In this document: piece by piece, positions 1,939 to 41,655 of the stretch
Layout: each line of letters begins with the position of its first letter
Numbering within the stretch: the first letter of the stretch is position 1
Notes under the pieces: model-generated
Told to the model about the DNA's origin: nothing
Databases searched by the model: none
The model's input: the letters and a program-made list of their open reading frames with translations, nothing else
Program-made: the position numbers and the translations under genes
Origin: Acetobacteraceae bacterium
GTDB taxonomy: Bacteria > Pseudomonadota > Alphaproteobacteria > Acetobacterales > Acetobacteraceae
Length of the DNA stretch: 43,160 nt
Direction: 5' to 3'
Assembly (NCBI GenBank): GCA_027353465.1
Contig: DAIEHR010000262.1
Span: 1-43,160 of the forward strand

Positions 1939-3750
1939 TTATGCTGTCGTAGGCAGTCCAACGGTGGTCCGAACCTCGATCCCGGCATGATACCCGAATG
2001 ACCCCCTGATCAGCATCTGGGCGTTCTGGACGGCCGACTGGGCCACGATGATGCCGTCGAACATCGACAGGGCCAGCGCCGGGCCTGGGGCTTGGCTCCA
2101 GTTCTTCAGCAGCATCATCACGGTGGTTAATGCCCGGGCCTCGATACCCTGGAGCCGCAATGCAAGGAGGCGCTCCGGTGACCCGAGATGAGACAGCTTC
2201 GTCAAGCCGGCAGGGACCGCCACAGCCTGTGCAGGTGTCGACAAGAATGGATATTTTGCGCAGACAACAGCCTTCACCGCCGATGCATCGAACGATCTGA
2301 ATAATTCTGCTTCCTCGGGCGAGGCGTTTTTCAACTGGCGTTTCGGCCATGACGTGACCCCGACCCCGTTCCCCAACGACGCGAGAATCCACTTCTTGAC
2401 GATATCGCGTGGCACCTCGGGGACCTCATAGGGATCGCCTTCAGGCAATTTCAGGCCGAGCAGGCCATGCATGATGGATAGGTGGGAGGCCTGAATGTCG
2501 ATCTCGGCTACAGGTTCGCCGTTAATCCTGATGTCCGCACGGCGTTGAGCCTTGGGCATTGACTGATAGGGTCGATCCGCCGATCCCCCAAGGGCATACC
2601 ATCGGCCATGAAGGGCATCGCAGGCTTGAAATACCCGCTTCCAGCGAGGCGGCAGGCAGCCCTCCACAGCCTGTTCCGCAGCGAAGGCATTGAAACTCTG
2701 GACCTCCCTGATCAGTCGCTCTGCATTATGACCGAGGGCGCTAATCGGTAATAAGTCCTTGCCCACATCCCTTGCTGCCGGGTCGTATTGTCTGGAGGTC
2801 ACCCTACGGACCAATACAGGTTCAGGCGGGAGCGGCGGGGCCTTGGTGGACGGCTGGGACCTAAAGTCGGCATTGACGGTCGCCGCTGTGACGCCGTGCA
2901 ACGTCGCCATGTCCAGCAGGTCCAAAGTCGGCCAGTAGCGGGTTACCGCGCCGCTCCATGATCGAACGCCTTCTTCCCAGTCGATCGGTGGCTTCGTGAT
3001 ACCTTCAGCAACCCCCAGGAGGCGCAGGCCACGCAGCGCGGTGGTTGCAGCCTCGAATGCTCGCCTGCCTATCGGTTGGCCGGTAAACGACGCGGCTTGA
3101 AGTTTCCTGTAGCTTGGTATGGTCTGTGTCCAAGCCCTGAGAACTCCCCCAACCACCGCACCTACGGCTCCCCTGAGAAGTTTCCTTCCGGCCTCACCCC
3201 GACGGACAGGTGTCGTCAGCGCCTCCTGGACTGCCACGTGGGTGGTTAGCTCCTCCACCAGGGCAACAGCAGCGGGCGTCACCGGGATGTAGTTCAGAGG
3301 CATTTGGGTCGCCCTACGGAGCCAAATGGCGAACTCCCGGTTCTCGGCAGGATTGCCCTCCGGCGGCGGAAGAGAGCCGGGCCACGGTGGTTCGGGAAAA
3401 TTGGTTCCAGTTACCCCTGAGGGGCCTTCTGGGCCGTGGAGGATCGAGACAGCATCACCTCCATCATCACCCCCCTCATCAGCGCTATTAGGGCATAGAG
3501 GTTGGGAGGTTTCCTGGCAGGCCATTAAAGGAACATCAGGTCCAGTAGGCGCTATTCGGGGTTTCGGTCTTTGTGGGGGTGAGATCGGATGTTCATCAGT
3601 GCCACCCCGTTGCTGGACCTTGCTTTGGTCAACGTCTGCTGACGACGAAGCGTTTATATCGGCTCCGAGGGCCTGAAGCGGGGTTGTTATGGTCCCAGTC
3701 GAGTATGAGGCGCGTGCGGCTTTAGCGGCGGGCGAAACGTGTTCAGTCAT
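1939..3750 (-). CDS. Uncharacterised protein with a polymerase-palm-like C-terminal half (family A-like motifs A, B, C)
   Basis: This 603-residue protein is unnamed in my knowledge. Residues 1-140 are low-complexity, proline-rich and probably disordered; about 160-300 is helical. The C-terminal half carries three spaced motifs resembling DNA polymerase family A and T7-type single-subunit polymerases. The first is RINGEPVAEIDIQASH (about 408-423), with an acidic residue where motif A has DYS. The second is DIVKKWILASLGNG (449-462), a lysine helix ending in a small-residue turn like motif B. The third is LSMFDGIIV (561-569), where motif C normally reads HD. Proteins with GRFY..., INGEP.VE.DYS.LH and HDS.IV strings occur on phages and plasmids, usually as hypotheticals. 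Here motif C has Phe instead of His. The polymerase call is inference from motif order and spacing. It starts at an ATG and lies upstream of hsdM on the same strand, in the mobile segment. Replication, defence or template-independent synthesis are all possible. Confidence 0.6.
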   Translation of the reverse strand: MTEHVSPAAKAARASYSTGTITTPLQALGADINASSSADVDQSKVQQRGGTDEHPISPPQRPKPRIAPTGPDVPLMACQETSQPLCPNSADEGGDDGGDAVSILHGPEGPSGVTGTNFPEPPWPGSLPPPEGNPAENREFAIWLRRATQMPLNYIPVTPAAVALVEELTTHVAVQEALTTPVRRGEAGRKLLRGAVGAVVGGVLRAWTQTIPSYRKLQAASFTGQPIGRRAFEAATTALRGLRLLGVAEGITKPPIDWEEGVRSWSGAVTRYWPTLDLLDMATLHGVTAATVNADFRSQPSTKAPPLPPEPVLVRRVTSRQYDPAARDVGKDLLPISALGHNAERLIREVQSFNAFAAEQAVEGCLPPRWKRVFQACDALHGRWYALGGSADRPYQSMPKAQRRADIRINGEPVAEIDIQASHLSIMHGLLGLKLPEGDPYEVPEVPRDIVKKWILASLGNGVGVTSWPKRQLKNASPEEAELFRSFDASAVKAVVCAKYPFLSTPAQAVAVPAGLTKLSHLGSPERLLALRLQGIEARALTTVMMLLKNWSQAPGPALALSMFDGIIVAQSAVQNAQMLIRGSFGYHAGIEVRTTVGLPTTA

Positions 3751-4085: not shown

Positions 4086-4307
4086 TCAGGTCTCACACAT
4101 GGCGGTGCAATGCAGATCGGATCGCGTCGCATTCGTCACCGAGTTTATTAGCCCCCCACGGCCCGCCAGCGCCTCCAGCCGCCGATACAGCCCGCACGGC
4201 GGCCACATCGAAGCCCCGTAGCGGTTGTCGGTGGTCTCGTCCATGTAGAGGTCCCGTCGAACCTTCAGCGTCGCCAAACGGACCCATTTCGCTTTACTCG
4301 TCCTCAT
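4086..4307 (-). CDS. Possible small hypothetical protein (73 aa), coupled to the gene upstream
   Basis: I do not recognise this ORF. It is the tail of a longer track ORF (to 4814) whose upper part is only a shadow of the Tat-signal gene. An ATG at 4307 lies inside the last codons of that gene, giving a 14-base overlap that could allow coupled translation. The product has a cysteine-containing middle (MWPPCGLYRRLEALAG) and no clear domain. There is no obvious Shine-Dalgarno sequence. It may be real or simply chance openness; the only support is position and overlap. Confidence 0.28.
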   Translation of the reverse strand: MRTSKAKWVRLATLKVRRDLYMDETTDNRYGASMWPPCGLYRRLEALAGRGGLINSVTNATRSDLHCTAMCET

Positions 4308-5208
4308 CAGACTGGTTCCAATTCGGGTGATACAGACTTGGATATCGGCGGACTTCAGCGTTCGGCTTGGGGCCTGGAGGAACTGGCCGTGGCTCATTAA
4401 GCAGGTAATCCAGGTCTTCCTGCTCGGGCTGTAGGGGAAGGGTCGCCGAAGTAATGGGCGCGACAAGCGGACTGTTGTCTGTCTCCAGGTCAGCATTAGC
4501 ATCATCAATGAGTTCGAGGGTAAATCGGATTGGAATACCGGCTGCCTCCGCCCGGCGGTTTGCCTCCTCAACCGACACGGTGAGTTCAGCAGCGTAGTAG
4601 GTGCTGCCTGGGCGATCCCCTTCGACGACGATGACCCCCAGCAGTTCCTCGGGGTCCCCAGGGAAGTGGCTCTGGAAGAACCTGAACGCGTAATCGTCCC
4701 CGTCCGCTGGGGTGGCGAAATACTCGTTCTCCTCGTTCTGATAGTCGGGTTCGGCGTCCAGCCATGCGTGAACCGTCTGCCGCAGGTTGGCGAACGCCAG
4801 CGGGTCCAACCCATCCACCCAGGCTTCTACCCCGTCCTCGGGTTCCTCAGGCCACCGCTCCTGATCGATCTCGGGCAGGCTGTCGCGGAATTCGGCGTAT
4901 TCAGAGTAAAGATGCCACATCAGTGGCTGCACGTCGTCGGCGGCCAGCAGTAAGGCAGCAGAGGTCGCCGCATCGTCGTAGCCGAGATCGAACGCGTCGG
5001 CCCTGGTCTCCGGGTTGGAGTAGTCCGACTGGCCAATTCGGCCGTCTCCGTTGACGGTGAAGGTGACCGGATGCAGTTCCATCAGCCTCCAAACGTCTGG
5101 GGTTACCTCGGCGGCCTCTACAGCCTTCTCCGGGATCACGGCGGGCAACAGCAGGCACGCGGCGAGACCCCGAAGGAAGCCCCGGCGGTCGAGTTTGAAC
5201 GACGGCAT
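4294..5208 (-). CDS. Tat-exported acidic hypothetical protein
   Basis: This 304-residue protein begins with a twin-arginine signal: KLDRRGFLRGL, a hydrophobic stretch (AACLLLPAVI) and a likely cleavage site near VEAAEV. It should therefore be exported folded to the periplasm. The mature part is strikingly acidic (repeated EEPEDG, QNEENE, ADGDD) with no catalytic motif or domain I can name. The proline-rich C-terminus (PRPVPPGPKP) ends in an acidic tail. The start is the ATG at 5208, preceded by a strong GGAAGGAG about 11 bases upstream. The gene follows the recombinase relic by only 18 bases, so it may be cargo of the mobile segment. Substrate and role are unknown. Confidence 0.7.
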   Translation of the reverse strand: MPSFKLDRRGFLRGLAACLLLPAVIPEKAVEAAEVTPDVWRLMELHPVTFTVNGDGRIGQSDYSNPETRADAFDLGYDDAATSAALLLAADDVQPLMWHLYSEYAEFRDSLPEIDQERWPEEPEDGVEAWVDGLDPLAFANLRQTVHAWLDAEPDYQNEENEYFATPADGDDYAFRFFQSHFPGDPEELLGVIVVEGDRPGSTYYAAELTVSVEEANRRAEAAGIPIRFTLELIDDANADLETDNSPLVAPITSATLPLQPEQEDLDYLLNEPRPVPPGPKPNAEVRRYPSLYHPNWNQSDEDE

Positions 5209-6542: not shown

Positions 6543-7221
6543 GGTGTTCTCCCGTTGCCCGACCACTACGGCCCGGCCGCACGCCGCATCGTTGCGAGAG
6601 AGAAAAAGCGGCGTCAACGGTCCCTAGGCGGCATTCCCTGGGTCCTGAAGGATTTCAAAGAAGGGTTAAAGGTTCGCCATGTTGTTGTTCGGTTCTGGCA
6701 TGAAGAGTGGGCGCCCCAAAAGCCCCTGGTTCCCCTTGGGTCCCATCCCCGGTCCCTCCCGGCCTCCTTCCAGCCCGTCTCATTTTATGAGACATTTGCC
6801 GCCTTCTGCTGGGTCCTCTCGTTGGGTTCCCATCCCGACCGATCTCTTCAGTCCCATTCAGGTGGTGCCGCCTCTGTTATACGCGGGGAGGGTTCAATGC
6901 GGGCTTCCGCTGCTCCCGTGGGCGGGTGGCAAGCTTCCATTTTGCACCAACGATTGCACCAACTACAGGCAAAACAAATTCTTATTTTGAGCCGCTTTAT
7001 GCGATTTTTCCGGTTCGGAATGAGTATCTCATCCCCTCCGCCAATCTTATCATTCAAGCACTTGATTTAACCCCATTGTTCGCGGATCGGAGCGCTGCTG
7101 CGCTTTGCGCTACCGCAACATCTTTGCGATTGTCTTTGCACGTTCGCGCACGCGGCGCGCCCACGGGGGTCAGCGTCACTGGCGCGATGGAGTAGCGAAC
7201 GGTCGGATATACCAACCCGAG
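6543..7221. other. Intergenic region between mobile segment and T6SS (679 bp)
   Basis: No convincing gene is seen on either strand; track ORFs here are low-complexity shadows. The segment contains a perfect 10-bp direct repeat (6942-6963) and a locally AT-rich stretch near 6970-7060. A string at about 7012-7042 (GGTTCGG...CCCCTCCGCCA) recalls a tRNA T-arm and acceptor end, but has no matching 5' half. It marks the boundary between accessory DNA and the secretion cluster. Confidence 0.45.
6942..6963. repeat. Tandem 10-bp direct repeat TTGCACCAAC
   Basis: TTGCACCAAC occurs at 6942-6951 and again at 6954-6963, separated by GA. It sits near the junction of the mobile segment and the T6SS operon. 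It could be a binding site or part of an attachment core; the function is unknown. Confidence 0.6.
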
Positions 7222-8226
7222 TCACAAAACGGAATCGAAGGTAGCATCGGTAGCATCGGGCAACGCCAGTCCAACGGGCACGCTCGTCCAGGTATTCCAC
7301 CCAAGACGCGGCGGGGCCGCTCCATTCAGCGACAGTGGAAACCTAGCGCCCGCGCCCAGCACGGGATTGATGACGAAGCCCACCTCCAAACCGAGGAATG
7401 CCTGAACCAGGCTAACGAGGCGGCGATGCGCCGGTTGGTCCGGCAGCAGCGCCTCAAAATCGTTCCGGTCCAGCGGGCCGATCCGCAGTACAATTCGGCC
7501 CTGGGTTTCCCAAGCTCGGTCTCCGACCACCGCATCGACGCCTAAACGGTTCCACGCACCCGCGTCCATCAGCCGCGGCAGGCAGGTCTGCTGGTCGGGC
7601 GGCAGAACGATCCAGCCGCCCGTGAATTGGCGGACTTCAACCGGCCTGCCGATCCAGTCGCCGACCAAGGCCGACAGACGCTCGGCGGAACGCGGATGCA
7701 TCGCGAACGATCCCGCATAGTGAAGCAGCGGGTCCGGACCAGCCTCCAGCCGCGCGAGCAAACCGGACGTGCCGTAGCCGGACACCGCAAGCAACGACGT
7801 GCTGATCGGGTCGGCCCGCGGCGGGACGGCCATGGCTGACACCTCGGCAGCACGATGCAGGCGATACTTGAAACCGGCCCGTCCGAACGCGGCCACCATG
7901 CGGTGCGACAGAAGATCCAGGAAATCGTGCAACGCGCTTGATCCGCGCCGGGACGTTTCCGCGGCCAGGGACTCATACAAACGCGGGAGGACGCCGCCGG
8001 CCCCGATCAGGCCAATCAGGGACACCGTGACGCGCGGTTCGGCCTGCCGATCAACCGCCGTGACCTCGCCCGCCGGAAACGCTCGGCCGGGTTGGGTGCG
8101 AAAGCGCGCCGCCTGCGATGGATCGCAGGTCTTCCGCAAACGCATCAACACCCGCAAGGCCGCGTCGAAGCCAAAGCGGTGCGGCTGTGTCAGAAGCCGG
8201 TGATGCACGGACGGTGCGCGCCTCAT
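7222..8226 (-). CDS. tssG: T6SS baseplate protein TssG (ImpH/VasB)
   Basis: TssG (334 aa) is a wedge component of the type VI secretion baseplate, binding TssF, TssE and TssK in the cytoplasm. The family pattern is clear: a basic N-terminus with RFGFDAALRVLMRLR, the segment VSLIGLIGAGGVLPRLY (family: L.G..G.LP..Y), FLDLLSHRM for the usual FLD.F.HR, then GRPVEVRQFTGGW and the C-terminal LGLEVGFVINPVLGA region. Length matches the family (about 300-350 aa). It is the last gene of the tssA operon, and its ATG overlaps the tssF stop by four bases (ATGA), implying coupled translation. No abnormality is seen. Confidence 0.95.
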   Translation of the reverse strand: MRRAPSVHHRLLTQPHRFGFDAALRVLMRLRKTCDPSQAARFRTQPGRAFPAGEVTAVDRQAEPRVTVSLIGLIGAGGVLPRLYESLAAETSRRGSSALHDFLDLLSHRMVAAFGRAGFKYRLHRAAEVSAMAVPPRADPISTSLLAVSGYGTSGLLARLEAGPDPLLHYAGSFAMHPRSAERLSALVGDWIGRPVEVRQFTGGWIVLPPDQQTCLPRLMDAGAWNRLGVDAVVGDRAWETQGRIVLRIGPLDRNDFEALLPDQPAHRRLVSLVQAFLGLEVGFVINPVLGAGARFPLSLNGAAPPRLGWNTWTSVPVGLALPDATDATFDSVL

Positions 8227-32141: not shown

Positions 32142-34790
32142 ATGACCAGCATTCATTTTAAGTTCGGTGACCGAGCGGATGCAGGCCGCCAATTGGCAGC
32201 CAGATTGGTTACGATGACGCTTGATCGGCCCGTGGTTTACGCTCTGCCCCGCGGCGGTGTTCCCGTCGCCCTGGAAATCGCGCAGGCTCTGCATGCCCCG
32301 CTCGAGCTTATGCTGGTGCGCAAGATTGGGGCGCCAGGCGCACCCGAAGTGGCACTTGGCGCGGTTGTCGAGGGCGAACATCCCGAGACCGTTATCAATG
32401 AAAACATGCGGCGCATTTCCGGCGTGGACGACGCTTATCTTGAGCGTGCCCGCCAGCGCGAACTTCGGGAACTTGAACGTCGCCGTGCCCGATATTTGGG
32501 CGACCGCCCGCGCCTGAGCCCGGCAGGATGCACCGCGATCATTGTCGATGATGGTCTTGCCACGGGGGCCACGGCTAAAGCCGCCCTGATTGCCCTCAAA
32601 CGCCAGGGCGCGGCCAAGACTGTGCTCGCGATCCCGGTTGCGCCGGAGGAAGCGCTGACCGATATCCGCAAGCACGCCGACCTTGTCGTATGCCTGCATT
32701 CCGCCAGGCGCTTTAACGGGGTTGGTGCTTTCTACAGCGATTTCCATCAACTCACGGATGAAGAAACACTCGGGTTGTTGCGTCAGGGTTGGGCGGAGGC
32801 TCCGGGCCCGTCCCAGGTCTTTGCCAGACGGCAGATCGCAGTGCCGCCCTTGGGCCTGGTCGGCGACCTGTGCGTGCCGCCGGAACCGCGCGGCATTGTT
32901 CTGTTCACGCATGGGAGCGGGTCGAGCCGACTTAGTCCTCGCAACATCTCCGTTGCCGACGCATTGAACACAAAGGGCTTCGCCACGCTTCTGCTGGATC
33001 TGCTGACTGTGGATGAGGCGAAGGACCGGCGCAATGTCTTCGATATTTCCCTGCTCGCGGAGCGCGTGCTGGAGGCGGCGCAATGGATCAGTGCTGAGCC
33101 CGACATCGCCGATCTGCCGCTGGGTCTGTTTGGAGCCAGCACAGGCGCTGGGGCGGCTTTACTGGCCGCGGCGGAACTTCGTGGCCGGGTGCAGGCAGTG
33201 GTCTCCCGCGGCGGCCGTCCCGATCTGGCCGGGTCGCGATTGGCTGAGGTCAGCGCGCCGACCCTGCTGATCGTCGGTGGCGACGATCGTAAGGTGCTCA
33301 CCCTGAACCGCCAGGCTCTGGCCGATTTGAGGTGTGAAAAGCTGTTGAGGATTGTCCCCAACGCGACCCATTTGTTCGAGGAGCCTGGCGCGCTGGAAAC
33401 GGTCACCGAGATGGCAGCCGCCTGGTTCCAGCACTATCTGGTGCCGCCAGCACGACGTCACGCCCCTATAGCGCCCTCGGTGGCCCAACCAGTATCGACG
33501 GCGGCATTGCTGCGTGGCGCGGCAGAACCATTGCCTGCCTTGGACGATCCGGCCTTCGCTGACGCCTTCGACCGGTTTGGTCAGTCGCGCATTGTGTTGC
33601 TCGGAGAGGCCTCCCACGGCACGTCGGAGTTCTATCGGGCCCGCGCCGCCATCACGCGCCGGCTGATCGAGCGTCATGGTTTTACGATCGTGGCGGTGGA
33701 GGCCGACTGGCCTGATGCCGCCGCAATCGACCGCTATGTGCGGCGAAGCCCGCATGAGCCAATGAGCTCATCACCGTTCTCGCGCTTCCCGACCTGGATG
33801 TGGCGCAACAAGGATGTCGATGACTTCGTTGCCTTCCTTCGGCGCCACAACGCTACGCGATCGCCCGGCGACAGAGTGGGGTTCTACGGTCTCGATCTGT
33901 ACAACATGACCGCCTCGATTGCCTCCGTCCTTACTTACCTCGATCGCGTCGATCCCAAGGCGGCGGAAGTAGCGCGCCTTCGCTATGCCTGCCTGTCGCC
34001 CTGGTCGCGGGAACCGGCGGCCTATGGGCGGGCTTCGCTCACCGAAGGCTACGCATTGTGCGAACAGCCGGTGACCCGCATTCTCGTCGATCTAATGCAA
34101 AAGGAACTTCGATACGCACGCCACGACGGCGCGGGGTTTTTCGACGCGGCGCAGAATGCCCGTCTGGTGGCTGACGCGGAGCGTTATTACCGGGTCATGT
34201 ATTACGGTTCCCACGAGTCCTGGAACCTGCGCGACCAGCATATGTTTGATACGCTGCGGCACATTCTGGAATGGGCTGGTCCCGACAAGAAAGCCGTTGT
34301 CTGGGCCCACAACTCCCACATTGGGGATGCGCGGTTCACCGATATGGGCATGGAGCGCGGGGAACTGAACATCGGCCAGCTGTGCCGCCAGTCTTATGGG
34401 GGCGATGCTACGTTGATCGGCTTCGGCACGCATACCGGTACTGTTGCGGCGGCCTCCGAATGGGATGCGCCGATGGAGATCAAGACAGTGCGGCCGTCCC
34501 GGCCCGACAGTTACGAGGCGTTGTGTCACCAGGTCGGCCACGAACGCTTCCTGTGGGACCTGCGGGCCGGACATCGTGACGATCTTCGGCATGTTCTGGC
34601 CGAACCCCGATTGGAACGTTACATTGGGGTTATATATAGGCCGGAGACGGAACGCTGGAGCCATTACACCTACGCGACGCTTCCCGACCAGTATGACGCC
34701 TTCGCATGGTTCGATAAGACCCGCGCGGTGATACCGCTGCCTGGGCAGGTGACCGCCGGAGATGATGAGACCTATCCCTTCGGCCTCTGA
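32142..34790 (+). CDS. Triple-fusion enzyme: phosphoribosyltransferase, alpha/beta hydrolase, erythromycin-esterase-like
   Basis: This 882-residue protein joins three enzyme domains in one unbroken frame. Residues 1-215 are a type I phosphoribosyltransferase with PRPP loop IIVDDGLATGATAKAAL (133-149). Residues 230-435 are a dienelactone-hydrolase-like alpha/beta hydrolase with the nucleophile motif GASTGAG (S333), GGDD (D381) and THLFEE (H410), a complete-looking triad. Residues 465-870 are erythromycin-esterase-like (EreA/B), with LLGEASHGTSEFY (E489, H492) and AHNSHIGDAR. Parts of this arrangement occur in proteobacterial stress islands, but the substrate is unknown; macrolide hydrolysis should not be assumed. 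The start follows the FNR-type box and has no good Shine-Dalgarno. It opens the stress island, divergent from the T6SS. Confidence 0.9.
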   Translation: MTSIHFKFGDRADAGRQLAARLVTMTLDRPVVYALPRGGVPVALEIAQALHAPLELMLVRKIGAPGAPEVALGAVVEGEHPETVINENMRRISGVDDAYLERARQRELRELERRRARYLGDRPRLSPAGCTAIIVDDGLATGATAKAALIALKRQGAAKTVLAIPVAPEEALTDIRKHADLVVCLHSARRFNGVGAFYSDFHQLTDEETLGLLRQGWAEAPGPSQVFARRQIAVPPLGLVGDLCVPPEPRGIVLFTHGSGSSRLSPRNISVADALNTKGFATLLLDLLTVDEAKDRRNVFDISLLAERVLEAAQWISAEPDIADLPLGLFGASTGAGAALLAAAELRGRVQAVVSRGGRPDLAGSRLAEVSAPTLLIVGGDDRKVLTLNRQALADLRCEKLLRIVPNATHLFEEPGALETVTEMAAAWFQHYLVPPARRHAPIAPSVAQPVSTAALLRGAAEPLPALDDPAFADAFDRFGQSRIVLLGEASHGTSEFYRARAAITRRLIERHGFTIVAVEADWPDAAAIDRYVRRSPHEPMSSSPFSRFPTWMWRNKDVDDFVAFLRRHNATRSPGDRVGFYGLDLYNMTASIASVLTYLDRVDPKAAEVARLRYACLSPWSREPAAYGRASLTEGYALCEQPVTRILVDLMQKELRYARHDGAGFFDAAQNARLVADAERYYRVMYYGSHESWNLRDQHMFDTLRHILEWAGPDKKAVVWAHNSHIGDARFTDMGMERGELNIGQLCRQSYGGDATLIGFGTHTGTVAAASEWDAPMEIKTVRPSRPDSYEALCHQVGHERFLWDLRAGHRDDLRHVLAEPRLERYIGVIYRPETERWSHYTYATLPDQYDAFAWFDKTRAVIPLPGQVTAGDDETYPFGL

Positions 34791-34977: not shown

Positions 34978-35988
34978 TCATCGCTCACCGCCTAATGCGT
35001 GGGAGACCAGGTTTACCGAACCAACCGTTGGAGTGGCTATCGGAAACGCCGCCGGCGGTTCAGCCTGCCGCGGGACACCACCGTCCAGTGCGCGGCATTC
35101 GCTCTCGCGGCCGCGCACCACCCGACGCCCGCGTGCCGGTCCTTGAGTCTCGTTAACGATGGTCCGCCGTCCTTCGGGCCTGGCGTCGCGATGGAAATAG
35201 ACGACGACCCAATCGCCCGTTCGCTCAAGTTGATGGGCGCGCGCGGTGTTGGAGTAAAGTGCCGTGAAGTGCCAACGGCCACGCATCGTATGCAGCACGG
35301 GCAGCCACGCCGCACCCGTCGGATTGAAGCGCTTGGGCGCGATCCGGTGCAGTGCGTTTGCCGCCGCCTTCTCGCGATATTCACGATCGACATCAAGCAG
35401 TATTGCGACGTCCGGCTCATCCACGACGCGAGACACCGGCGGCCTCGCCCTGGCAAGCAGCGCGGCAAGAGCGCTCCGAATGATCGCCGTCCGACGCTCG
35501 CCGAAGCCGGGCACCTGTCGCAGGCGTCCATCATTTGCCGCGATTTCCAGTGCCTCCAGTGACTCTAAATGCAGCGTTTCCTGGATCCGGTGAGCCAGGC
35601 CCGAGCCTATACCGGGAACGGAGCAAAATAGCGCCTCCGGGTCACTGCTACCCTTCAGCCGCTCAAGAAAACCCCAGCGTCCGGTGGCCAACATTTCCGA
35701 CATGGCACCGGCAATCGATGGTCCGATGCCGGGAATTGCCTCCAGGGCCATTTGACCACCTTCGGTCACCACATCTCGAAGGTCCGCCTCCATCCCCACA
35801 ATTGCGTCGGCGGCACGGCGATAGGCCGCGGTTCGAAACGGGTTGGCACCTTGTGCCGCAAGCAGGCTAGCAGCCTGCCGAAGCCGATCCGCGATCCAGC
35901 CATTGCTTCGTAATGGAAGAAATTCACGCATGGAAACATCGGCGGCGGGAACACCGGGAGACCGCTTAGAGGACGGCTCAGTGCTCAT
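34978..35988 (-). CDS. Helix-hairpin-helix protein with PolX-like N-terminus and non-polymerase C-terminus
   Basis: The start is set at the ATG at 35988 (MSTEPSSKRSPG...), which overlaps the upstream gene by 11 bases; 336 residues. The N-terminal half resembles the 8-kDa plus HhH region of family X DNA polymerases: NPFRTAAYRRAADAI, then IPGIGPSIAGAMSEML and a second hairpin VPGIGSGLAHRIQE, and a third VPGFGERRTAIIRSAL. Where PolX has the catalytic palm with paired aspartates, this protein has a different domain (AILLDVDREYREKA, FNPTGAAWLPVLHTMRGRWHFTAL in two runs, TGDWVVVYFH). No nucleotidyltransferase GS...D.D motif is visible. It is likely a DNA-binding or damage-response factor; its activity is unknown. 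It is third in the yidB-DUF3775 operon. Confidence 0.75.
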   Translation of the reverse strand: MSTEPSSKRSPGVPAADVSMREFLPLRSNGWIADRLRQAASLLAAQGANPFRTAAYRRAADAIVGMEADLRDVVTEGGQMALEAIPGIGPSIAGAMSEMLATGRWGFLERLKGSSDPEALFCSVPGIGSGLAHRIQETLHLESLEALEIAANDGRLRQVPGFGERRTAIIRSALAALLARARPPVSRVVDEPDVAILLDVDREYREKAAANALHRIAPKRFNPTGAAWLPVLHTMRGRWHFTALYSNTARAHQLERTGDWVVVYFHRDARPEGRRTIVNETQGPARGRRVVRGRESECRALDGGVPRQAEPPAAFPIATPTVGSVNLVSHALGGER

Positions 35989-36412
35989 CGACCGGCAGGC
36001 TCGTTTCGCCAAGATCGTAAAGGCCCTTCCTCAGATGAATATGTAGGTCGTGATCTCCCATAAGGTCCGCCGCGATTTCATCCTCCTTCAGTGTCTTGGC
36101 GGAACGGATCGTTGCGTCGCGGTCCTCGATCGCGGCATCGCCTCGACCGATGCGCGCCACGACCCATAGATTTTCCCGAATGTCACGTGGGAGTACCTCG
36201 ATTGCCCGCAGCAAGGCGACGAACGCGGGCTGCGTCCGCGGCACGGCATCCAAACTGCCCCCGGCCGCGGGATCGCGGTCGCCGCGAGCCAGCGCCGGTT
36301 TGCCCAAACCTTTTTCAGGAACCGTTTCCAACAGTCGATCGCGAACCATGCGCGCGTCCAACGCCAGATCGGCTATGTGACGCACTTCAAGAACCTCCAA
36401 TTGATACAACAT
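35978..36412 (-). CDS. DUF3775-like protein
   Basis: This 144-residue protein has an N-terminal helical region (LEVLEVRHIADLALDARMV) and a core, LRAIEVLPRDIRENLWVVARIGRGD, that fits the DUF3775 pattern of L..I..L..D...L....W.GRGD. The family has no established function that I know. It starts 33 bases after the yidB-like gene and overlaps the HhH gene by 11 bases, so the three are an operon likely driven by the FNR-type box at 36865. It is intact, with no membrane segment. Confidence 0.65.
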   Translation of the reverse strand: MLYQLEVLEVRHIADLALDARMVRDRLLETVPEKGLGKPALARGDRDPAAGGSLDAVPRTQPAFVALLRAIEVLPRDIRENLWVVARIGRGDAAIEDRDATIRSAKTLKEDEIAADLMGDHDLHIHLRKGLYDLGETSLPVDEH

Positions 36413-38415: not shown

Positions 38416-38429
38416 TGACTTGCATCAAG
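38416..38429 (+). promoter_or_regulatory. FNR/Anr/FixK-type box (TTGACTTGCATCAA)
   Basis: Nine of ten positions match TTGAT-N4-ATCAA. The centre is about 75 bases upstream of the hsp20 ATG; a class II start near 38464 would leave a leader of about 34 bases containing the AAGGAAA ribosome-binding site. Confidence 0.62.
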
Positions 38430-38497
38430 GGCAGTCCACACCGTATCGCGCAAAAAATTCCCGCGTCCATCGTCAACAAAATGAAGGAAATATTGAT

Positions 38498-38995
38498 ATG
38501 GCAACGAATATCGTCCCCGTGAAGCAATCGGCACCGTCGGTCATCGGCACGACGGACGTCTGGCAGTCGCTACGCTCCGAAATGGACCGGCTCTTCGATC
38601 GATTTACCAGCGGCTTTGGCATGGTGCCGTTTCAAACGCGGCGTGCGGAGACGGGATTTAGTATTCCGTCCCCAGCCGTCGACATCAATGAAGATGATAA
38701 ATTCTTCAGGCTGACCGCCGAACTTCCAGGGATGGCGGAAAAGGATATCGAGGTTTCCGTTTCAGGAAATACGCTCGTTATCAGAGGTGAGAAGCGCCAG
38801 GAGAAGGAGCAAAAGGAGAAGGGATATTATTTTTCGGAGCGGAGTTACGGGGAATTCCAACGGTCGTTCGTACTGCCCGATGGCGTCGATGGCACGAAGA
38901 TCGAGGCCAGTATGGCCAAGGGAGTACTAACCGTAACCGTGCCGAAAAATGCTGAGGCCGCGCCCAAGAAGATCGAGGTTAAGGCGGCCGGCTGA
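38498..38995 (+). CDS. Small heat-shock protein Hsp20 (alpha-crystallin family)
   Basis: This 165-residue holdase starts at the ATG at 38498 (MATNIVPVKQ), where AAGGAAA lies eight bases upstream; the track adds 26 spurious residues from a TTG or similar start. The N-terminus has W-SLRSEMDRLFDRFTSGFG; the alpha-crystallin domain covers about 50-145, with PAVDINEDDKFFRLTAELPG, DIEVSVSGNTLVIRGEKR and YGEFQRSFVLP, and it closes with GVLTVTVPK. It lacks an IXI-type tail but ends in PKKIEVKAAG. It is transcribed away from the adh gene, is preceded by an FNR-type box and followed by a strong terminator, so it forms a single-gene unit. Confidence 0.95.
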   Translation: MATNIVPVKQSAPSVIGTTDVWQSLRSEMDRLFDRFTSGFGMVPFQTRRAETGFSIPSPAVDINEDDKFFRLTAELPGMAEKDIEVSVSGNTLVIRGEKRQEKEQKEKGYYFSERSYGEFQRSFVLPDGVDGTKIEASMAKGVLTVTVPKNAEAAPKKIEVKAAG

Positions 38996-39007
38996 ATAAC
39001 GGGGTCT

Positions 39008-39039
39008 GCTCGGGGCGGGATAGAAATCCCGCCCCGAGC
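39008..39039 (+). terminator. Strong stem-loop terminator after hsp20
   Basis: GCTCGGGGCGGGAT and ATCCCGCCCCGAGC form a perfect 14-bp stem with the loop AGAA, 12 bases after the hsp20 stop. There is no T-run, but the stem is very stable. Confidence 0.85.
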
Positions 39040-39341
39040 CAATCAAACCCGGGGGGTCGAAAAGATTGTTGGCGTCACGCTCGTCCCGGAGCAGACCAAC
39101 CAGGCACCGCTTGGTGCGCCCCACAAGACTCCAGGATGCGCAGGGTGGCAGGAAGCACATCTACAGGCCCCAGTCGTTCACGGGGGGCGATCGCGTCGCC
39201 CAGACTACTTAGTTAGGCTTTATCTCACGCCCATCACGGAACTGATAGTCAACGGCGGCCTTGCCCGCACGAGCGATGCTTGTGGTTCAAGCGATAACCC
39301 GGATGCGGACGCCTGCCAGTGGCGAGGCGTCCACGTTGGCG
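39040..39341. other. Intergenic region between hsp20 and BON gene (302 bp)
   Basis: The two genes converge here. Short ORFs on either strand have no recognisable content. Apart from the hairpin near its right end, I see nothing in it. Confidence 0.5.
39307..39332 (-). terminator. Stem-loop after the BON-domain gene
   Basis: GGACGCCT and AGGCGTCC form an 8-bp stem enclosing a second small hairpin (GCCA...TGGC), ten bases beyond the BON stop. It has no T-run on the transcribed strand. Confidence 0.5.
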
Positions 39342-40007
39342 TCAGGCGGCGACGACAAGGTGATTGGCGACCTCGGTAATCCCGGGGGCCGACCAAGCCG
39401 CATTCTCGGCGATCCCGCGCTCCCACCAGCTTTTCACCCGACCCTCCAGGGTAGCCGTTCCGCCGCTGACTTTGACCGTGATATGCGACGCTTCGAACTC
39501 CGCGCTGCGTCGTAATGCGGCCTCGATCTGGTCATGTAAGCTCGCGGCGTGCGCGACTTCCCGAGAACTGCCACGGACCTCGATCAGGTCCAGGATGTCA
39601 ACAACGCCGCTAAGTAGCCTGATGTCGTTTTCGGCGGCCTGCTTCTGAAATTGATGTGAAACAAAGCCGGTCAACGTCACGACGCCTTTTTCGACCTTCA
39701 CCTGAAGCTGTTTATCAGGCACCTCCGCATCCCAACTGAGGATTTTGACCGCCCGTTCAGCAATTTCCTCGTCCGACCGCTTGTGCGCCGCCGGGGGCCG
39801 GACCACGATCTCCTCCGCCAGTCCGCGTACCCCCTTCACGCGGTTGGCAGCTCGTTCGGCGGCAAGTTTTTCGGCATAGGTTGAAACGATACCGCTGAGT
39901 GTTACGACACCGTTCCGTGCGGAAACACCGATATGTGCGGTATCAACATTGGGAACCCATACGAGTTCGTCCATCACCTGGGCTTGCAGTGTTACGTCGT
40001 CAACCAT
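39342..40007 (-). CDS. BON-domain protein with three BON repeats (OsmY-like, no signal peptide)
   Basis: The start is set at the ATG at 40007 (MVDDVTLQAQVMDEL), which has AGGAGAG six bases upstream; 221 residues. Three BON domains follow one another: residues 1-70 (IGVSARNGVVTLSGIVSTYAEK), 75-145 (LQVKVEKGVVTLTGFVSHQFQK) and 150-215 (ITVKVSGGTATLEGRVKSW). Each has the alternating hydrophobic V..G.VTL.G.V pattern. There is no signal sequence, so it is likely cytoplasmic, unlike periplasmic OsmY. It starts 26 bases after the groEL stop and is probably co-transcribed with it. A stress-protective or membrane-associated role is typical of the family. Confidence 0.9.
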   Translation of the reverse strand: MVDDVTLQAQVMDELVWVPNVDTAHIGVSARNGVVTLSGIVSTYAEKLAAERAANRVKGVRGLAEEIVVRPPAAHKRSDEEIAERAVKILSWDAEVPDKQLQVKVEKGVVTLTGFVSHQFQKQAAENDIRLLSGVVDILDLIEVRGSSREVAHAASLHDQIEAALRRSAEFEASHITVKVSGGTATLEGRVKSWWERGIAENAAWSAPGITEVANHLVVAA

Positions 40008-40033
40008 CGTACTCTCCTGTTCAAAAACATCCA

Positions 40034-41655
40034 TCACGCCGCCAAATCCGGCTCCAGGCCGCGGCTTTTCCCCGGTTCCGGAATGTCGGTCATCGTCGCC
40101 TCCGTCAGCAGCAGAACACTGGCGACGGAGACGGCATTCTCCAGGGCGATACGAACCACTTTCGTCGGATCGATGATTCCTGCCTCAAACAAATCGACGT
40201 ATACCTTCCGGGCCGCGTCGAAGCCTTGCGCGCCTTGTCCGGCAAGCATTCGGGCAACCACAACCCCACCATCCACAGAGGAATTCTCAGCGATCTGGCG
40301 GGTGGGCGCCTCCAGCGCGCGTTTAGCACCTGTACGCCTGTGCGCTCATCGCCCTCGCACTTCGCTTCTTCCGCGCCGACCGCTTCGATGCAACGGATCA
40401 GCGCCAACCCGCCACCTGGCACGATCCCTTCCGCGACCGCGGCCTTGGTGGCACTGATCGCATCATCCAGCGCCTCCTTCCTGACCTTCATTTCGGCCTC
40501 GGACGGCGCGCCGACACGGATCACGGCAACGCCGCCGGATAGTTTCGCCAGTCGTTCCTGCAACTTCTGACGGTCATAGTCGGAAGTGGCATTCTCTATC
40601 TGTTGATGTATCCGCTTGCACCTGCCTTCGATATCTTCTTTCTTCCCGGCACCGCCCACGACCGTTGTGTGTTCATTTGTTATGACCACCCTCTTGGCAA
40701 TTCCGAGCGCCTCGATGGTTACAGATTCGAGTTTGACACCGACCTCCTCGCAGATCATCTGGCCGCCGGCCAGCACAGCGAGATCCTCCAGCATCGCTTT
40801 CCGACGATCGCCGAAACCCGGGGCCTTCACAGCCGCGACCTGCAAGCCACCCCGCAGTTTGTTCACCACCAGTGTCGCCAGGGCCTCCCCTTCGACATCT
40901 TCCGCGACGATCAGTAGCGGCCGTCCAGATCGTACGATGGCTTCAAGCAGGGGCAACATAGGTTGCAGACTTGCCAGCTTCTTCTCATGAATAAGGATAT
41001 ACGGATCCTCAAGCTCGACGATCATCTTCTCCGCGTTGGTAACGAAATACGGTGAGATGTAGCCGCGGTCGAACTGCATACCTTCAACCACTTCCAGTGT
41101 GGTCTCCGTTGTCTTCGACTCCTCGACGGTGATGACTCCCTCGCCGCCAACCTTTTCCATGGCGTCAGCGACCAATTCGCCGATCACCCGATCATTGTGG
41201 GCGGCGATGGTGGCGACCTGAGCCTTTTCCTTTCGGGTGCTCACGTCGCGGGAAATCTGACGCAGCACTTCGATCGCGACTTTCGCGGCGCGGTCCAGGC
41301 CACGTTTCAAATCGATCGCACTGGCACCGGCGACAACGTTGCGCACGCCGTCGGCGAAAATCGTCTGGGCGAGGATTGTTGCGGTGCTGGTGCCGTCACC
41401 AACCGTGTCGCCCGTCTTTTCCGCGGCCTGCCGCAAGACCTGCGCACCCAGGTTTTCCTCGGGGTCCTTGAGGTCAAACTCCTTGGCGATGGTGACGCCA
41501 TCGTTGCAGATAACCGGCGACCCCCAGCTTTTTTGGATCAGCACCGACTTCGATTTCGGCCCCAGGGTGACCCGAACGGCATCGCAAAGCAGCGTCGTCC
41601 CACGCAGTATTTTCTCGCGGGCAGCGGAACGGAAAAGTACTTGTTTGTGCCCCAT
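40034..41655 (-). pseudogene. GroEL (Cpn60) paralogue with a one-base frameshift near the C-terminus
   Basis: The track shows residues 1-516 in one frame, but the last 70 are nonsense; the true C-terminus ([23 protein letters not shown]...) is in another frame (40034-40276). The break is at GTGCTAAACGCGCGC, where the family reads VLKRALEAP: one A or G is missing from the lysine codon near 40322. Repaired, the protein is about 540 residues, a normal chaperonin length. [12 protein letters not shown], the apical and hinge segments and [10 protein letters not shown] are intact. The C-terminal tail lacks GGM repeats, and no groES is adjacent, so this is an accessory paralogue rather than the housekeeping chaperonin. 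AGGAG precedes the ATG at 41655. Its last segment, including part of the ATP-binding equatorial domain, would be lost if the frameshift is real. Confidence 0.88.

Follow-up and report, generated by a model that had tools for sequence, protein, structure and literature searches.

A probable TV-Pol-type family-A polymerase with mobile-element associations beside a type I methyltransferase gene in an Acetobacteraceae bacterium

What kind of enzyme is encoded by a 603-codon frame, unbroken by stops, that adjoins a type I restriction-modification gene in an Acetobacteraceae genome, and what would it do there? The gene lies in contig DAIEHR010000262.1, of which the window (the whole stretch of DNA analysed) covers 43,160 nucleotides, and a first-pass annotation had described its product as an orphan, unexplored protein with a family-A-like polymerase palm that could serve in defence or replication. 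Searches of Pfam and NCBIfam gave no match to the query protein, PF00476 (DNA polymerase I) being absent even at E-values up to 10, and in single-sequence searches the only family match was to phrog_4756 (E 5.6e-13), which has no assigned function. The query is not PolA itself, as it has no Pfam or NCBIfam match and no exonuclease domain; the host's own full-length polA lies on a separate contig (C105). While single-protein scans of contig collections found no relatives, family members are present in 5 of 98 related genomes and, more widely, in 23 of 300 genomes from the family, 26 of 385 from the class and 28 of 399 sampled across the phylum. Some of these are fragments or are interrupted by stops, and most are annotated as hypothetical proteins without a Pfam model. 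All 45 aligned members match phrog_4756.

The three motifs noted at the outset, EIDIQASH (residues 416–423), KKWILASLGNG (452–462) and MFDGIIV (563–569), occur in that order in the frame, and D418 and D565 had been numbered correctly. Together with R383, R403 and K452, these two residues are invariant across the 45 aligned sequences, even at 12% identity to the query. The hairpin arginine R383, the invariant R403 and K452 and a 'GDPY' element containing D439 add landmarks to the original three, and motif B starts ahead of KKWILASLGNG at R448 (R448-x3-K452); in the fingers, D439 is conserved in 43/45 sequences, R448 in 44/45 and K452 in 45/45. The motifs exceed chance. A loose pattern of their order and spacing did not occur in any of 200,000 shuffled versions of the C-terminal half, which is a weak aid given that the pattern was composed after inspection of the family and matches only 23 of the 45 members. 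The N-terminus is predicted to be disordered, as proposed initially, and translation could actually start downstream of the codon at position 3750.

Table 1 Features of the polymerase gene and its surroundings in the window
Feature	Coordinates	Strand	Evidence
hsdM, type I DNA methyltransferase, ends at contig edge	1..1763	-	PF12161 E 7.5e-27; PF02384 E 3.5e-57; PADLOC MTase_I E 1e-240
TV-Pol-type polymerase gene (probable)	1939..3750	-	603 aa; phrog_4756 E 5.6e-13; model and PDB fold matches
Motif C, residues 561-570, F564-D565	2041..2070	-	D565 in 45/45
Fingers, residues 439-462: D439 (GDPY), R448-x3-K452, L456 at presumed Pol I F762 position	2365..2436	-	Alignment
Motif A, residues 412-423, predicted metal-binding D418, H423 at presumed Pol I E710 position	2482..2517	-	Model and alignment
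Beta hairpin, residues 370-386, invariant R383	2593..2643	-	Strands 370-375, 377-386; R in 45/45
N-terminal globular domain, winged-helix-like (predicted), residues 136-332	2755..3345	-	Separate model, mean pLDDT 89.8
Residues 1-117, low-complexity, predicted disordered	3400..3750	-	pLDDT < 50; scarcely conserved among relatives
304-aa ORF, N-terminal RRGFLRG (Tat-like signal)	4294..5208	-	No Pfam match
Serine recombinase, gamma-delta resolvase type, 283 aa	5509..6360	-	PF00239 E 3.1e-37; PF02796
Point where contig C303 of the same genome stops matching the window	7026	.	Likely accessory-stretch edge

An AlphaFold model built on the 45-sequence alignment has high confidence over residues ~139–590 and supports the family-A-like palm. 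Of 105 PDB matches with E ≤ 0.001, the best 50 all belong to the family-A DNA polymerases, including KlenTaq, T7 DNA polymerase, Pol theta and the apicoplast polymerase, with E-values down to 5e-6. TM-scores of the PDB matches are low (0.21–0.27, normalised by query length), values to be expected of a minimal core that carries a disordered tail plus an unrelated N-terminal domain. A viral fold library returned phage relatives (E down to 1.9e-18), one of them named a DNA polymerase, as well as a virophage helicase/primase/polymerase (E 6.6e-5). Judging from strand and turn positions in the model (412–419, 561–563 and 566–570), D418 and D565 are placed at the canonical metal-binding sites of the palm. 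Profile searches had been proposed as a check alongside structure prediction. Beside the missing PF00476 match, hhalign brought motif A into the correct register with PolA at a P of 0.12, which is not significant and was not used as proof, and the case for homology to PolA is therefore structural. Among the 45 members, a single one hit a PHROG annotated as RNA polymerase. Fold and catalytic residues are shared with DNA polymerase I, whereas the PF00476 match and the exonuclease domains are not. The lack of an exonuclease signature noted earlier held in both Pfam and the model, and a fused nuclease of any kind was sought with the same result, Pfam giving no match and the order of elements in the model leaving no space for one. 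The N-terminal globular domain appears winged-helix-like in its model, its top PDB matches being mostly winged-helix regulators at weak scores (E 0.15 or worse), and such a domain may be new for this kind of polymerase. It contains helices 159–179 and 186–208, and a further long helix (336–358) precedes the hairpin.

These features point to a kind of enzyme that is already known, to which the query adds a member. The TV-Pol family was described by Iyer, Abhiman and Aravind in 2008 by a hairpin arginine, two aspartates, a fingers aspartate, an RxxxK motif, a thumb of two antiparallel coiled-coil helices, and neighbourhoods with resolvase, integrase or transposase and restriction-modification genes, and was predicted to have both primase and polymerase activity (PMC2579912). 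The query has the hairpin with its invariant arginine, an RRM-like palm with two aspartates, the fingers aspartate and RxxxK, no fused nuclease domain, and a mobile-element neighbourhood with a resolvase and a restriction-modification gene; it also has an N-terminal domain, as a subset of TV-Pols does. It differs in having F564 in place of histidine and in that no D5-like helicase was found nearby, and a coiled-coil thumb could not be made out clearly in the model. In most of the published features the phrog_4756 family agrees with TV-Pol. A profile comparison with the 120 ORFs of Microcystis phage Ma-LMM01, a reported host of a TV-Pol element, gave gp030 as the best match (P 6e-4), aligned from R383 through K452. 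Since gp030 adjoins transposase genes in that phage, it probably represents the TV-Pol published from there.

The family also has a phage branch. A Vibrio phage protein was found with the query at E 7e-7 and itself matches 242 phage records, 115 of them from Rheinheimera (barbavirus) phages. This link, together with the match of all bacterial members to phrog_4756, connects the query to the barbavirus divPolA2, a group of Caudoviricetes proteins described in 2024 (PMC11348598), and the phage branch of the family is divPolA2 itself. Both have an N-terminal domain and a palm, with no exonuclease, and belong to one sequence family, but divPolA2 is phage-borne and forms a separate branch of the tree, whereas the query is bacterial and accompanied by a resolvase. 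In its section on divPolA2 the paper does not equate the group with TV-Pol (PMC11348598), and the link may be new. Next to the phage copies, a downstream gene (169 aa in both cases) was considered as a partner and rejected, as one product looks HNH-type and the other is dissimilar by inspection. The description as orphan and unexplored was thus wrong in part, the family having been described twice and one TV-Pol, CCPol, having been tested: CCPol polymerises and, with MP, primes (PMC7581432), and as of 2020 the literature gave it as the only TV-Pol studied in the laboratory. The CCPol–MP primase of SCCmec (PMC7581432) and the PolA–SSB primases (PMC10061031) resemble the query in their family-A core, their location on mobile elements with serine recombinases and their lack of proofreading. 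CCPol has an SSB-like partner, whereas no conserved partner gene was found for the query: neither an SSB partner nor a D5-type helicase was identified near it, and the recurrent neighbours at family loci are recombinases and, at three loci, RNase HI, although a very divergent OB-fold could escape such a survey.

Residue correspondence was assigned by comparing the order of motifs with that in the host PolA and in T7 gp5. We take R383 to be equivalent to Pol I R668, D418 to D705, H423 to E710, R448 to R754, K452 to K758, L456 to F762, F564 to H881 and D565 to D882. E710 and F762 bar ribonucleotides in Pol I, and both are kept in CCPol (PMC7581432), whereas in our alignment the E710 position is His in 28/45 sequences and Glu in none, and the F762 position is Asn, Leu or Thr in 36/45 and Phe in none. 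The alignment suggests that the family has lost both Pol I residues of ribose discrimination, which may be a new observation. This replacement gives some weight to an enzyme that joins ribonucleotides, i.e. a primase or RNA polymerase making primers or transcripts, an alternative that we regard as possible but tentative. Motif C reads HDS in most relatives, as it also does in T7 RNA polymerase, and three separate genomes have an RNase HI gene directly beside the TV-Pol gene (L114:4961-5740, L119:9348-9875 and L131:8981-9475); an RNA polymerase was likewise considered for divPolA2 (PMC11348598). However, the best 50 of the 105 PDB matches are DNA polymerases without exception, a single member of 45 touched an RNA polymerase PHROG, and residue changes alone do not fix the choice of sugar, as a bulky histidine could itself act as a gate.

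The phenylalanine at motif C, noted from the start as atypical, is real: the residue before the motif C aspartate is His in 42/45 sequences, Phe in 2/45 and Asn in 1/45. It is found in the query and in one relative; the sister of that relative in the tree carries His, which means that Phe replaced His at least twice. From sequence, F564 could leave the query copy weak or dead, and it is conceivable, though doubtful, that the gene is a decayed or inactive passenger of an element remnant. The rarity of F564 and its independent origin from the one other case would fit such decay, as would the long disordered N-terminus, an insert ahead of motif C, neighbours without replication genes, and the fact that several relatives are fragmentary or carry stops. 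Yet the frame of the query is intact, all its remaining catalytic residues are kept and the core is modelled with confidence. Two distant chromosomal TV-Pol copies in one other genome (G319:C1; L122, L144) share 98.6% identity across 2,067 bases, and in each of them the gene is divided between two frames.

The surroundings of the family point to mobile elements. The survey of homologue neighbourhoods covered flanks of ~8 kb in each direction if the contig was long enough, with control regions drawn from the same genomes, and a tyrosine or serine recombinase was found at 36/44 family loci compared with 1/18 controls (Fisher p 2e-8), a contrast that is somewhat flattering because the recombinase profiles were derived from TV-Pol loci. 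At the query locus the resolvase lies 1.8 kb upstream of the polymerase gene on the same strand. A contig of 21,261 bases (G429:C14; L141/L145) holds a ~8.95-kb unit repeated at 99% identity, with a variable number of TPR repeats, that encodes RepA (RepA_C), a ParA-like ATPase, a resolvase, a D12-type methylase and a TV-Pol. It is apparently a ~9-kb circular plasmid whose assembly runs through the circle more than two times, with a chromosomal tandem array as the other reading, and a small RepA/ParA plasmid bearing a TV-Pol may be new.

Methylase genes had a narrower distribution, lying near 9/46 loci including the window. The hsdM gene is 0.2 kb downstream of the polymerase gene on the same strand, the contig end precluding a view of HsdS or HsdR, and it invites the reading that the polymerase takes part in defence together with the type I restriction-modification genes. 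Methylase genes near eight relatives besides the window, against 0/18 controls, and a relative on the Thioclava plasmid pTElox9 (L197, 7896-11396) that lies 150 bp upstream of a methyltransferase–helicase pair on the same strand are consistent with this, but no PADLOC model matches the query protein, the neighbouring methylases are of different types and are missing at most loci while recombinases are general, and the family is widespread in phage genomes; we consider a defence role very improbable. A repair polymerase for gap-filling or translesion synthesis is an unlikely alternative that would suit the missing proofreading domain, and such a role was proposed for divPolA2, which occurs in phages that encode a PolB as well (PMC11348598). 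The host, however, has its own full-length PolA, and the family is patchy (5 of 98 related genomes) and tied to recombinases. The pTElox9 relative also lies near IS21 and AbiE genes.

Replication of a mobile element is the better half of the original suggestion of a defence or replication factor, and we consider it probable that the query is a TV-Pol, a minimal family-A polymerase of a small mobile element that is predicted to prime or extend the element's DNA. Priming or copying the DNA of its own carrier element appears the most likely role. The predicted core consists of hairpin, palm and helix-turn-helix fingers, preceded by the winged-helix-like domain, which would hold the element DNA. 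By homology with Pol I, D418 and D565 would bind two catalytic metal ions, R448 and K452 would contact the phosphates of the incoming nucleotide and R383 the template–primer end. Genomic context and the example of CCPol suggest that the enzyme primes and/or extends DNA during element replication, while the resolvase would perform excision or resolution and hsdM would be a co-passenger in the same accessory region. A more speculative and rather unlikely extension is that these proteins form a self-contained primase–polymerase lineage of mobile elements and phages, which would have lost the sugar-gate residues, gained the winged-helix domain for template binding and made RNA or mixed primers without an SSB partner, RNase HI removing these primers in some elements. 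With the probable TV-Pol/divPolA2 link, the apparent small plasmid and the altered sugar gate, the primase-plus-polymerase prediction of 2008 is now directly testable with a compact protein.

The extent of the accessory stretch is indicated by C303, another contig from this genome, whose end (L189) matches window positions 7026-7404, at the TssG end, with 97.9% identity before running into unrelated chromosomal genes. The edge of the stretch is likely at 7026, and the mismatch is possibly an empty-site variant or could reflect mixed strains in the assembly. The idea that the genus has a conserved insertion site next to TssG was considered and rejected, as TssG relatives are only ~50% identical and give no clean empty site, and no convincing direct repeats flank the element. 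Other parts of the window hold Type VI secretion genes (~7222-30780; TssG, VgrG-type baseplate, ClpV-like AAA, FHA and Ser/Thr kinase), an 882-aa fusion of phosphoribosyltransferase, hydrolase and erythromycin-esterase-like domains (32142-34790, + strand), and a 344-aa protein (34978-36012, - strand) with HHH_8 and HHH_5 as in the N-terminal part of X-family DNA polymerases, in which no polymerase domain was matched. Clustered Hsp20, BON-domain and Cpn60-like genes at 38420-41655 form a stress-type group.
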